The notes under the pieces: generated by a model
Databases searched by the model: none
What the model was told of the DNA's origin: nothing
What the model saw: the letters and a program-made list of their open reading frames with translations, nothing else
Translations under genes and position numbers: made by a program
DNA from: Blattabacterium cuenoti
Lineage (GTDB): Bacteria > Bacteroidota > Bacteroidia > Flavobacteriales > Blattabacteriaceae
Reading direction: 5' to 3'
DNA length: 64,000 nt
Assembly: GCF_014251655.1 (NCBI RefSeq)
Contig: NZ_CP059225.1
Span: 1 to 64,000 of the forward strand
In this document: positions 8,902 through 64,000 of the stretch, one piece after another
Layout: each line of letters starts with the position of its first letter
Position numbering within the stretch: the first letter of the stretch is position 1

Positions 8902-10538
8902 ACTAACTGATATATGTTATATATTATTGTGTATAATAATATTATTATTAGGACTAATAAACTTATTTTAGCAATAAAATCTCCATGTTTTATATAAAAA
9001 GTATGATTTTTATTCAGATATATTTTTTGGTATAAAATCCCTTCCTTTCCATAAGGAATAGATGATGTGATATCTCCTTTTTCATTGATGAAACAAGAAA
9101 TACCTGTATTTGCAGATCTAGCTATCCACTTTCTATTTTCAATAGCTCTCAAACGCGCATAAAACATGTGTTGTTGATGGCCTTGAGTCTGTCCCCACCA
9201 TCCATCGTTAGTAATAATAATCATAAATTCAGCATTTTTTTTTCTAAAAAAATTAGAGACATATTCCCCAAAAACAGATTCATAACAAATAATCGGAGCT
9301 ATTTTGATTCCTGAAAAAGGATGATGAAAAACGGTAGGTTGATTTTGTTTTCCAAGTTCCATTACGGTTCCACCCAAATTCAGTAAAATATTTCCTAATA
9401 TAGGATAAAAAATCTTTTTATAGGGAAAAGTTTCTACCGCTGGTACTAACTTAGATTTATGATGATATTCTATATTTTTGTTAGTTCCTATTTGAATAAC
9501 TGAATTAAAAATATCTATCCATATTTTTGTATTCTTATTAGTAGAAACAGGTATTGAAGTTTTACTTATATTTTTTTTATATAAAGTAAATAATTCTATT
9601 CCTGTTATAAATACGGTTTTGGGTGATTTTTTTATCAGATAATTTTTAAAAATAGAGATGATTCTATTTTTACTTATATTTTTTATGGATATTTTGCTCG
9701 ATTTTCCAGGTAATGTAGTTTCAGGAGCTATTATGACTATGGATTTTAAAGATATTTTCTTATTTATTAGTTTTTTTAATTTTAAAATTAATTTTTGTGT
9801 TGATATACTATATTTTTGATTATATGGATCTATATTAGGTTGTAATATTAATACGTCTATAAATTTTTTATATTTTTCTCCTTCATATTTGAAATATATA
9901 ATATTAGAAACCAATATTAATAAAAAAATTTTTCCTATGTTAAGTAAAATTTTTTGATATAAAAAAAGTATTTTTCTATTCTTTTTGTATTTTATAATGG
10001 ATTCGGTGAATCCAATATTAACGATCCATATCCATAAAGTTCCTCCTAAAGTTCCAGTATATTCATACCATTGAATCCATTCTATACGATTGCAAAAACC
10101 ATTTCCTAAGTTTAACCATGGCCAAGATAATTCCCATTCTAAATGTATTTTTTCAAATAAAATCCATAAACAAACTAGAAATATATATCCTATATTTCTA
10201 CTTTTTACATATTTCTTTATCCATGAATAACATATAAAAACCATTGACATAAAAAAAGAATTCAGGAATACAGGAATTAAATAAGCTTCTATTGCAAAAG
10301 ATCCATTAGTTTGTTTTGTATAGGATAACCAACATGTAGAAATAGCATTCCATGTGAAAAAAGTAACAAAAGAAAGAAAAAAAATGTAAAAAAAAGAATG
10401 ATTTAAACTATTTTCCACATATAATAAAGGAACAAAAGCAATAAATAAAAAAAACGGATTACCATTAGTAGGCCATCCTAATCCTAATAAAATCCCTGAA
10501 AAAATACTGTAGATAAAAAATTGAATCTTTTTATTCAA
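8886..10538 (-). CDS. lnt: Apolipoprotein N-acyltransferase
   Basis: Lnt is the inner-membrane enzyme that adds the third acyl chain to lipoproteins. The open frame extends upstream to 10622, but that extension translates the 3' end of tmRNA. The protein therefore most plausibly starts at the TTG at 10538, giving 550 residues that begin NKKIQFFIYSIFSGILLGLGWP, as expected for the first membrane helix. There are about six N-terminal membrane segments, then a nitrilase-like periplasmic domain holding the E-K-C triad: E in APETTLPG, K in HHKSKLVP and C in PIICYES, then a last helix. The catalytic residues are intact. The start lies just 18 bases beyond the tmRNA 3' end, after a T14 run on the coding strand. 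Confidence 0.92.
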   Translation of the reverse strand: MNKKIQFFIYSIFSGILLGLGWPTNGNPFFLFIAFVPLLYVENSLNHSFFYIFFLSFVTFFTWNAISTCWLSYTKQTNGSFAIEAYLIPVFLNSFFMSMVFICYSWIKKYVKSRNIGYIFLVCLWILFEKIHLEWELSWPWLNLGNGFCNRIEWIQWYEYTGTLGGTLWIWIVNIGFTESIIKYKKNRKILFLYQKILLNIGKIFLLILVSNIIYFKYEGEKYKKFIDVLILQPNIDPYNQKYSISTQKLILKLKKLINKKISLKSIVIIAPETTLPGKSSKISIKNISKNRIISIFKNYLIKKSPKTVFITGIELFTLYKKNISKTSIPVSTNKNTKIWIDIFNSVIQIGTNKNIEYHHKSKLVPAVETFPYKKIFYPILGNILLNLGGTVMELGKQNQPTVFHHPFSGIKIAPIICYESVFGEYVSNFFRKKNAEFMIIITNDGWWGQTQGHQQHMFYARLRAIENRKWIARSANTGISCFINEKGDITSSIPYGKEGILYQKIYLNKNHTFYIKHGDFIAKISLLVLIIILLYTIIYNIYQLVYFIS

Positions 10539-60226: not shown

Positions 60227-61435
60227 ATGAATTTATATGAATACCAAGGGCGAGAAATATTAAGTTCTTTTTCCATTCAAATACCTAGTGGAGGAATAGC
60301 TTCTTCTCCAGAAGAAGCTGTACAAGTAGCAAAAATACTTTTTCAAAAAACTAGAAAAAAATCTTTAGTTATTAAAGCTCAAATACATGCTGGTGGTAGA
60401 GGAAAATCTGGTGGGATTCAAATAGCAAAAACTATAGATGAAGTTTATGAAAAATCTAAAAAAATTTTAGGAAAATTTCTTATAACTCCGCAAACTTCTA
60501 AAAAAGGAAAATTAGTTAGAAAAATATTATTATCTGAAGATATTTATTTTCCTGAATACAAATCTCCTAGAGAATATTATTTATCCATATTATTAAATCG
60601 TGATATAGAAAAAAATATAATAATTTATTCTAAAGAAGGAGGAGTTCATATAGAAGATCTTTCAAAAAAAAAACCGCATAAAATATATACGGAAGTAATA
60701 GATCCAATATTAGGAATTCAATTATTTCAAACTAGAAAAATTGGTTTTAATTTAGGAATATATGATGAATCCTTAAAAAATTTTAGTAAATTTTTAGTTT
60801 CTATTTATAAAGCTTATACAACTTATGATGCTTTATTATTAGAAATAAATCCTTTAATTATAACATTAAAAAAAGAAATTATACCAGTAGATATAAAAAT
60901 TATATTAGATGATAATGCTTTATTTAGACACCAAAAGTATGCTATTTTAAGTCATCAAGATGATGATATTAATCCTATTGAAAAAGAAGCTATTAAAGAA
61001 AAATTGAATTTTCTTAAATTGGAAGGAAATGTAGGATGCATGGTAAATGGAGCTGGATTAGCTATGGCTACTATGGATATGATTCAATCTTGTGGTGGAA
61101 AACCATCTAACTTTCTAGATATAGGAGGTTCTGCAGATAAAAAACGTGTAGAAAAAGCTTTTTCTCTTATATTAAAAGATAGATCTGTTCAAACAATATT
61201 AATAAATATATTTGGAGGAATAGTACGTTGTGATATGGTAGCAGAAGGAATAATTAATTCCTACTATAATAAAAACGATAGAGATATTAATAAACTACCG
61301 GTAGTCGTTCGTTTGCAAGGAACAAACAAAGAAAAAGCAAAAAAAATGCTTGAAAATAGTGCATTACCTATTTATTCTACTGATACCTTGAAAGAAGCAG
61401 CTGATAAGATTAAAGAAATTTTGCAGATCATATAA
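60227..61435 (+). CDS. sucC: Succinate-CoA ligase, beta subunit
   Basis: SucC is the nucleotide-binding subunit of succinyl-CoA synthetase, the TCA step after SucAB. The 402 residues start MNLYEYQGREIL, the ATP-grasp family start, with VIKAQIHAGGRGKSGGIQIA (about 46-65), the metal-binding EINPLI (about 206-211), GNVGCMVNGAGLAMATMD and FLDIGGSADKKRVEKAF near the C-terminus. The length is slightly above the usual 388. sucD is not adjacent. It opens a plus-strand series with dnaX 23 bases later. Confidence 0.96.
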   Translation: MNLYEYQGREILSSFSIQIPSGGIASSPEEAVQVAKILFQKTRKKSLVIKAQIHAGGRGKSGGIQIAKTIDEVYEKSKKILGKFLITPQTSKKGKLVRKILLSEDIYFPEYKSPREYYLSILLNRDIEKNIIIYSKEGGVHIEDLSKKKPHKIYTEVIDPILGIQLFQTRKIGFNLGIYDESLKNFSKFLVSIYKAYTTYDALLLEINPLIITLKKEIIPVDIKIILDDNALFRHQKYAILSHQDDDINPIEKEAIKEKLNFLKLEGNVGCMVNGAGLAMATMDMIQSCGGKPSNFLDIGGSADKKRVEKAFSLILKDRSVQTILINIFGGIVRCDMVAEGIINSYYNKNDRDINKLPVVVRLQGTNKEKAKKMLENSALPIYSTDTLKEAADKIKEILQII

Positions 61436-61458: not shown

Positions 61459-62940
61459 ATGAATCATGTGTTTTTTGATCACATTATGTTATCTGATAAA
61501 TATAGACCTGTAAAATGGAAAGAAATAATAGGACAAAAAGAAATTATTATAAGTTTAAGAAAAGCTATACAAAAAAATAAATTATCTAGATTTTTATTTT
61601 TTTTTGGACCAAAAGGGGTTGGAAAAAATACATGTGCACATCTTTTAGCAAAAGAATTAAATTCTTTTTCAGATTCAGAATTAAAAAATTTTTCAAATAT
61701 ATTCGAAATTAATGGGATCTTTCATCATACTTCTTTGATCGATTTTTGTAAAATTATTAATCAATCTCGTTTTTTTCCTAAAAAAGGAAAATATAATATT
61801 CTTATTATAAGAGAGTTAAATATGTTTTCTTCCAAGCATTTTAATTATTTATTAAAATTTATAGAAGAAAAACATACACATATATTATTTATTTTTTGTG
61901 GAACAGAAGAAAAAAAAATACCAGAAATACTTTTATCACGTTGTCAAATATTTTATTTTCAAAGTATTTCTACGAAAGAAATTTTTTTTTATTTAAAAAT
62001 GATTGCTGAACAAGAACATATTTCCATAGAAAACGAATCTTTATTTCTCCTTTCCAAATATTCCGGAGGATCTATTGGTAAAGCTATTTTTATATTTGAT
62101 AGATTATTAAATAATAATAGAAATGTTATATCCAAAAATATGATTATGAAAAAATTAGGAATCATTGATGCAAAATTTTATTTTCAAATTATAGATCATA
62201 TTTTAAATGAAAAAATGTATAAAATATTCATTTTATTGGACAAAATATCTCAAGAAAAAATTAATTTTTATGATTTTATTATAGGATTTATTAAACATTT
62301 AAAAAATTTATTTTTATCTAAAAATATTGAAACAATTTCCATTTTAAAATTCGAAAAAAAAATAATAGAATATTATATTGAACAATCAAAAAAAACGTCT
62401 TATTTATTCTTAATAAATGCTTTGAATATATTTTTTTCTTTAGAAAACAAATTTCATTCTAGATTAACGATAGAAATATATTTCATTCAATTAGTATATT
62501 TTTTTTCTCTTGATAAAAATCATCATCATCAAAATAAACTAATGAAGATAGAAAACAATAAAGAATTTTTTATTTGTGAGAAAAATGAACAGATTCATTT
62601 CTTGCAAAAAAATTGGATAAATTTTATACAAAAATTTTCTGAAAAAATAAACGGAATTTATCTAGACTTTTTGAAAAGCGAAATCAAATTCCATATCATA
62701 AAGAATAAAATATTTTTTATGATTCCTTATAAGTTAGATAGCCAATATTTTTTATTAATTCAAACACATTTTGTAAAATACTTAAAACAAAAATTAAATA
62801 ATCCACATTTAGAATGGGAAATTATAAAAACAAAATCAAAAAAACATCCAATAGAAACATTCAATTTTTTATATCAAAAAAATAAATTAATAGAAACTTT
62901 AATAGAACGATTAGATTTAAAAATATCTTCTTCCACATAA
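61459..62940 (+). CDS. dnaX: DNA polymerase III gamma/tau subunit, degenerate ATPase
   Basis: DnaX is normally the ATPase motor of the clamp loader. The 493-residue frame has the family start (SDKYRPVKWKEIIGQKEI; ATG at 61459, or the ATG at 61486) and overall layout, but key positions differ from the norm. Walker A is GPKGVGKN (50-57) with Asn in place of Thr after the lysine. Walker B is ILIIREL with R118 where Asp is expected in IIDEVHMLS. The zinc module with four cysteines is missing (about 67-85). The sensor 2 site reads GSIGKA without the arginine of GSLRDA. The SRC arginine-finger motif (160-162) is kept. The C-terminal tau-like part is present. The frame is uninterrupted, so the protein is probably made, but ATPase activity is doubtful. 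Confidence 0.85.
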   Translation: MNHVFFDHIMLSDKYRPVKWKEIIGQKEIIISLRKAIQKNKLSRFLFFFGPKGVGKNTCAHLLAKELNSFSDSELKNFSNIFEINGIFHHTSLIDFCKIINQSRFFPKKGKYNILIIRELNMFSSKHFNYLLKFIEEKHTHILFIFCGTEEKKIPEILLSRCQIFYFQSISTKEIFFYLKMIAEQEHISIENESLFLLSKYSGGSIGKAIFIFDRLLNNNRNVISKNMIMKKLGIIDAKFYFQIIDHILNEKMYKIFILLDKISQEKINFYDFIIGFIKHLKNLFLSKNIETISILKFEKKIIEYYIEQSKKTSYLFLINALNIFFSLENKFHSRLTIEIYFIQLVYFFSLDKNHHHQNKLMKIENNKEFFICEKNEQIHFLQKNWINFIQKFSEKINGIYLDFLKSEIKFHIIKNKIFFMIPYKLDSQYFLLIQTHFVKYLKQKLNNPHLEWEIIKTKSKKHPIETFNFLYQKNKLIETLIERLDLKISSST

Positions 62941-63050: not shown

Positions 63051-64000
63051 ATGATTTATCATTATTCGTCAAACAGTAGAAAAAAATTTTTTTTCTCTTC
63101 TACTTATTCCGATGAAGATATTGAAAATGATAGTTCTACTTCTTCTTATGGATCTGGTGGATCTGGAGGGAGTACAGGTTCTAGTTATTATTATGGAAGA
63201 TCCTCCATTAGAAGAAGCAAAACTCCTGTTTTAGATAATTTCGGAAGAGATCTAAATGCCATAGCTATGGAAGGAAAATTAGATCCTGTAGTAGGTAGAG
63301 ATCAAGAAGTAGAAAGACTATCTCAAATACTGAGTAGAAGAAAAAAAAATAATCCTTTACTCATAGGAGAACCAGGAGTTGGAAAATCAGCTATTGCTGA
63401 AGGATTAGCTTTACGTATTGTACAAAAAAAGGTTTCTAGAGTATTATATAATAAAAGAGTAGTTGTATTAGATTTGGCTAGTTTGGTAGCTGGAACTAAA
63501 TATAGAGGTCAATTTGAAGAAAGAATGAAATCTATTATAAATGAATCAGAAAAAAATGCAGGATTGATTCTTTTTATAGATGAAATTCACACTATGATTG
63601 GAGCAGGAGGAACTACAGGATCATTAGATGCTTCTAATATATTCAAACCTGCTTTAGCAAGAGGTAATATTCAATGCATAGGTGCTACGACATTAAACGA
63701 ATACAGACAATATATAGAAAAAGATGGAGCCTTAGAAAGAAGATTTCAAAAAATAATAGTACAAGCTTCTTCTGAAGAAGAAACTATAGAAATTCTAAAA
63801 AAAATAAAAGGAAAATATGAAACTCATCATAATGTTATTTATACAGAAGAAGCAATAAAAGCTTGTGTAAATCTTACTGTTCGATACATTGTAGATCGTT
63901 TTTTACCAGATAAAGCAATTGATGCATTAGATGAATCCGGATCTCGTGTTCATATAAAAAACATAAAAGTTCCACAAGAAATAGTTTTTTTAGAAAAAGA
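63051..64000 (+). CDS. clpC: ATP-dependent Clp protease ATP-binding subunit ClpC (5' part; N-domain absent)
   Basis: ClpC unfolds proteins and feeds them to ClpP. The gene runs off the window; 316 codons are visible. It begins with a Ser/Gly-rich linker (residues about 1-50), then [23 protein letters not shown], the D1 ATPase with Walker A GEPGVGKS (106-113), Walker [10 protein letters not shown] and the GATTLNEYR segment. The usual N-terminal double Clp_N domain (about 140 residues) that binds adaptors and substrates is not there. A TAA stands two codons before the ATG, and the preceding 110 bases contain nothing similar in any frame. The linker is the one that normally joins the N-domain to D1. 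The call of ClpC over ClpB rests on the linker and the [13 protein letters not shown] sequence. Confidence 0.88.

Follow-up and report, generated by a model that had tools for sequence, protein, structure and literature searches.

The dnaX gene of this genome of Blattabacterium, a symbiont of cockroaches, occupies positions 61459-62940 of the window, by which we mean the whole stretch of 64,000 nucleotides analysed here (positions 1-64000 of a single contig of 621,203 bases). It lies on the forward strand, is open throughout, as the earlier note had read it, and runs from an ATG to a stop codon, encoding 493 amino acids. The neighbouring genes are syntenic and on the same strand: sucC (60227..61435, +) upstream, which served as the control for our codon models and marks a clean deletion of dnaX in a relative (see below), and a gene for a ClpC-type ATPase downstream (63051..63998, +), which runs past the end of the window.

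The dnaX product and its altered motifs

The predicted protein shares sequence homology with DnaX over the AAA+ and collar regions. It matched the NCBIfam model dnaX_nterm at 3e-65 (220.8 bits, under the 250-bit cut-off), and a search of the PDB returned E. coli gamma/tau at 2.5e-30. An AlphaFold2 model gave a complete clamp-loader subunit with a mean pLDDT of 74, and this model matched E. coli gamma/tau best (Foldseek 4e-21, TM up to 0.79 by target length). As modelled, the protein has the three-domain fold of a clamp-loader subunit, of which the helical collar, domain III (residues 216-345, 62104..62493, +), is under purifying selection. A separate alpha/beta domain was predicted with moderate confidence at the C-terminus (residues 375-493, 62581..62937, +). 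This domain aligned with the C-terminus of DnaX from free-living Bacteroidota, and we propose below that it may bind the polymerase in the manner of tau. A profile comparison with the C-terminus of E. coli tau gave no match, and a search of solved structures with this domain gave no Foldseek match at E<=0.001, the best Z being about 5. Sequence and profile searches of the 621 kb, one-contig genome revealed no second dnaX.

The earlier note claimed that this intact gene no longer encodes the residues required for hydrolysing ATP. We aligned 46 Blattabacterium DnaX proteins that have the N-terminal part with DnaX from nine free-living Bacteroidota, two members of the sister genus and E. coli, and every substitution in the note was borne out. 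In the Walker A sequence GPKGVGKN (residues 50-57, 61606..61629, +), E. coli T52 corresponds to N57 (61627-61629). In the Walker B sequence ILIIREL (residues 114-120, 61798..61818, +), E. coli D126 corresponds to R118, with the adjacent catalytic glutamate retained as E119. The sensor-2 arginine, R215 in E. coli, is replaced by G207 in GSIGKA (residues 204-209, 62068..62085, +). The four cysteine positions of the zinc module are deleted or substituted (residues 68-80, 61660..61698, +). The protein also retains three residues that the note did not mention: the P-loop lysine K56, the sensor-1 threonine equivalent T149 (61903..61905, +), kept in half of the genus, and the arginine finger R161 of the SRC motif (S160 R161 C162, 61936..61944, +).

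The same pattern extends over the genus. The Mg-binding threonine was found in 0/46 Blattabacterium proteins (asparagine in 41, serine in 4 and histidine in 1) and the sensor-2 arginine likewise in none, while the Walker B aspartate remained in 1/46, the catalytic glutamate in 7/46 and the arginine finger in 27/46; of these three, the window protein keeps the latter two. The P-loop residues G45, G50 and K51 were retained in 46/46, including the genomes that lack dnaN. All reference DnaX proteins carried the canonical residue at the P-loop, Mg-threonine, Walker B, sensor-2 and arginine-finger positions. Because the same positions are altered genus-wide while the P-loop glycines and lysine are invariant, the motif changes exceed what chance would produce, and the invariance suggests that a nucleotide, or the structure of the P-loop itself, still matters. 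The zinc module is missing from Blattabacterium as a whole and also from the sister genus, whose DnaX is otherwise canonical and keeps its catalytic residues; the loss of zinc is therefore older than the catalytic loss and not tied to it. The alignment together with the predicted fold ruled out another location for these motifs within the protein.

Loader partners, polymerase and clamp in the genus

We searched 49 Blattabacterium genomes (0.51-0.64 Mb) for the other clamp-loader genes. The Pfam model PF13177 detects DnaX and HolB alike and was the basis of the search for delta'. It matched two or more proteins in most free-living relatives, and in Blattabacterium it matched DnaX and Clp-type ATPases. 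A HolB profile run against the 49 genomes likewise matched only DnaX and Clp-type ATPases. Two genomes of the sister genus (G064 and G177), 300 kb in size, encode a canonical DnaX together with HolB. The holA model TIGR01128 identified a real HolA in most free-living relatives (200-277 bits) and HolA in G064 as well; in Blattabacterium it matched DnaX and, over a short length, a 910-residue open reading frame. A profile made from Flavobacteriales HolA had matches in 0/49 Blattabacterium genomes at E<=1; its own run contained no positive genome, and the curated model, searched separately, serves as the control. In sum, the profile searches for a second dnaX, for holA and for holB, which the earlier note had proposed, found none of the three in any of the 49 genomes. 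The match of DnaX to the holA model raised the idea that DnaX had itself become delta-like, which we rejected because DnaX proteins of free-living bacteria match the model as well or better. In the sister genus, holA (G064:C1:328344-329215) appears as two overlapping matches in different frames, reflecting a frameshift or a split gene.

The polymerase, by contrast with these subunits, was found at once: DnaE scored far over the cut-off in 49/49 genomes, and its catalytic aspartate triad was invariant in the 46/46 sequences aligned. In all 18 free-living Flavobacteriales the internal beta-binding motif of DnaE (Q[VA]SLF, PPDLF, QLEMF and the like) stands at one place, and DnaE of the sister genus retains it as QSLF (G064). 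At the homologous place it was present in 0/46 Blattabacterium proteins, which have a short linker rich in lysine and asparagine instead. Scanning DnaE for a relocated clamp-binding motif yielded no conserved replacement; the isolated matches in G011 and G040 are not conserved. The two sister-genus genomes (G064, G177) lack both the end of DnaE, about 200 residues, and the C-terminal domain of DnaX, whereas Blattabacterium keeps both. The two genera are thus mirror images, the sister genus having intact catalytic residues in DnaX and having lost the C-termini of DnaX and DnaE.

The clamp itself, DnaN, was recognisable in 41/49 genomes. Its C-terminus reads ILIMS(T/I) or similar, compared with VVMPMRL, and several positions of the binding pocket are altered. 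Where the gene is present its omega is 0.15, indicating purifying selection and therefore that beta still does something; the dnaN loci (G000:C1:593718-594782 and those of the genus) are thus under selection in genomes with neither recognisable loader partners nor the alpha motif. The remaining eight genomes have cleanly deleted dnaN, with conserved neighbours on both sides. These eight form one clade in a DnaE and SucC tree (SH-aLRT 100), so a single deletion is the simplest history. In four of them (G010, G011, G023 and G039) dnaX has stayed open ever since, while DnaE and SucC accumulated 0.4-0.6 substitutions per site; with dnaN deleted there, DnaX in these cells cannot load DnaN. The reverse case is G024 (L051), in which dnaX is cleanly deleted between the end of sucC at 10209 and the start of clpC at 10417 and dnaN is present, showing that the two genes can be lost independently.

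Judged from its motifs and from the missing partners, DnaX of the window is very probably not a functional clamp-loader ATPase. The earlier note had offered three ways out of this difficulty. That another ATPase loads the clamp gained no support, holA and holB not being found, the alpha motif being lost and one clade having lost the clamp. Nor is a loader powered in a very different way the preferred reading; loss of canonical clamp loading explains the data better. The third, a pseudogene still open by chance, is taken up with the selection data.

Distribution of dnaX and selection on it

We extracted dnaX from all 49 genomes and found it intact and full-length in 41. It is absent from G024 and G029. 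Only the C-terminal half is left in G038, the N-terminal half being destroyed; the gene is split at homopolymer runs in G004, G022, G048 and G009, and G015 has a premature stop. With dnaX absent from two genomes and broken or split in six, whatever role DnaX retains is dispensable in places. In G004 (L038), G022 (L032) and G048 (L037) the split is caused by an A11 run near base 1070-1090, in the linker between the collar and the C-terminal domain, with a stop directly 3' of the run and both halves conserved. In relatives whose gene is in frame, the same linker holds A10, A11 or A16. The run is similar to the slippage site in Thermus dnaX; by that analogy, transcriptional slippage may rescue the three split genes.

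Codon models fitted by segment to 40 intact dnaX genes gave an omega of 0.15 for the RecA-like domain, 0.11 for the lid, 0.21 for the collar and 0.19 for the C-terminal domain. For the dnaN-less clade fitted alone the estimates were unstable because of saturation, two segments not converging under one model. The values from the 40 genes are roughly 1.4-2.5 times that of the control sucC (0.083). Fixing omega at 1 was rejected with a likelihood-ratio statistic (twice the log-likelihood difference) of 344-932. Pairwise dN/dS estimates for dnaX were higher than those of the models, as is expected of saturated, AT-rich genes; they were below 1 in nearly all pairs and above those of sucC in most. 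In simulations, once divergence passed about 0.05 substitutions per site, a neutral frame with the composition of dnaX almost never remained open. The dN/dS comparison that the earlier note called for therefore points to purifying selection and not to neutrality, and a pseudogene kept open by chance is not borne out by an omega of 0.11-0.21, by the likelihood ratios or by the simulated lifetime of the frame. dnaX is a constrained gene, less strictly so than the metabolic gene sucC.

A probable loss of clamp loading

AAA+ ATPase clamp loading is considered a nearly universal part of DNA replication in cells, and E. coli tau binds alpha through the C-terminal ends of both proteins. We are confident that canonical clamp loading has been lost in Blattabacterium. 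As for what DnaX does now, we lean towards a role as a scaffold for the polymerase. The C-termini of DnaX and DnaE are retained together in one genus and lost together in the other, which fits an interaction between them, although this is one comparison of two genera; it is from this joint retention and from the tau-alpha binding of E. coli that we infer polymerase scaffolding as the surviving function. On the reading that we favour by a modest degree, the whole genus would no longer load the beta clamp by means of ATP and DnaX would persist as a hydrolysis-dead polymerase scaffold. Its three-domain clamp-loader fold would hold a nucleotide, or no more than a rigid P-loop; the collar would mediate self-association, and the C-terminal domain would bind the C-terminal part of Pol III alpha in the way known for E. 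coli tau. Such a scaffold could stabilise or pair polymerases, and the chromosome would then be copied at low processivity, which a symbiont that grows slowly and has a small chromosome could bear. Several observations speak against a scaffold: the C-terminal domain has no match to tau, dnaN is under selection, the arginine finger is kept in many genomes and dnaX has been lost in some.

Part of this evidence fits another explanation, in which homo-oligomers of DnaX bind ATP and hold or open beta without hydrolysis, the clamp being tethered through DnaX and not through the alpha motif. The P-loop retained in 46/46 proteins, the arginine finger in 27/46 and the purifying selection on dnaN where it is present would all be accounted for, and in known loaders it is the binding of ATP, not its hydrolysis, that opens the clamp (PMC3331839). 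However, dnaX has stayed open in four genomes with dnaN deleted, no delta subunit is there to open the ring, and the Mg-binding threonine and aspartate and the sensor-2 arginine are all lost. We consider a residual handling of the clamp rather unlikely.

It is also conceivable that DnaX is functionless and on its way out, the apparent selection being residual or recent. The deletions in G024 and G029, the loss of the N-terminal half in G038, the split genes of G004, G022, G048 and G009, the premature stop in G015 and an omega 1.4-2.5 times that of sucC are what such slow decay would leave behind. This is hard to reconcile with a gene intact in 41/49 genomes across deep divergence, with its omega of 0.11-0.21, and with a neutral frame that closes by about 0.05 substitutions per site, and we regard it as improbable. 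Least credible by far is that highly divergent delta and delta' subunits or host-encoded proteins leave DnaX still powering a loader: homologues can hide in fast-evolving, AT-rich genomes, but the HolA profile made from relatives had matches in 0/49 genomes at E<=1 whereas DnaE was found at once, and with the alpha motif and the catalytic residues of DnaX lost, such partners would be of little use.

The favoured reading, a hydrolysis-dead scaffold, can be set against known systems. In bacterial loaders ATP is hydrolysed only by the three DnaX-type subunits; ATP binding suffices for opening the clamp, and hydrolysis ejects the loader (PMC3331839). Blattabacterium DnaX resembles these gamma/tau subunits in its homologous sequence, its predicted three-domain AAA+ fold, its P-loop, the SRC motif of the window protein and a C-terminal extension that can be aligned to DnaX of Bacteroidota. 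It differs from them in lacking the Mg-binding, Walker B, sensor-2 and zinc residues, in a genus where delta and delta' were not found and the alpha motif is gone. With the non-hydrolysing subunits, such as E. coli delta' and those of the RFC5 type, it shares the AAA+ clamp-loader fold, a degenerate active site and an SRC motif kept in many members; those subunits, however, share their complex with active ATPase subunits, and no active subunit was found in Blattabacterium.

Among symbionts, Carsonella is reported to have lost dnaN, holA, holB and dnaX altogether (PMC2175510); Uzinura is without dnaN and dnaX and Sulcia is listed without dnaX, while Walczuchella is reported to retain all subunits (PMC3971599). 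Earlier work on Blattabacterium did not find dnaN in strain Bge (PMC2768785) and described it as a pseudogene in the strain from Periplaneta japonica (PMC6039017). In the literature searched, where subscription papers were mostly out of reach, we found no description of dead DnaX motifs, missing delta subunits or a lost alpha motif in this genus. Like Carsonella, Uzinura and Sulcia, Blattabacterium replicates with DnaE and without a complete clamp-loading set. In those smaller genomes the genes are reported as simply absent, whereas in Blattabacterium a dead DnaX is conserved in most of the genus. The loss of clamp-loader genes from tiny genomes is thus known already; a conserved, dead DnaX in genomes of 0.6 Mb, of which the literature searched gave no description, adds a well-sampled variant to this trend.

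We put forward, tentatively and at a little short of even confidence, that a genus with 0.6 Mb genomes replicates without a working loader, one clade also doing without the clamp, and that its DnaX is a scaffold under selection that binds nucleotide but does not hydrolyse it, an intermediate preserved on the path towards replication with no loader at all, as in the tiniest genomes. In Blattabacterium the parts of the loader stand at different stages of loss while DnaX is still selected, so that the part DnaX plays in loading comes apart from its organising function. The genus also offers an order of events towards tiny symbiont genomes that replicate with little beyond DnaE.
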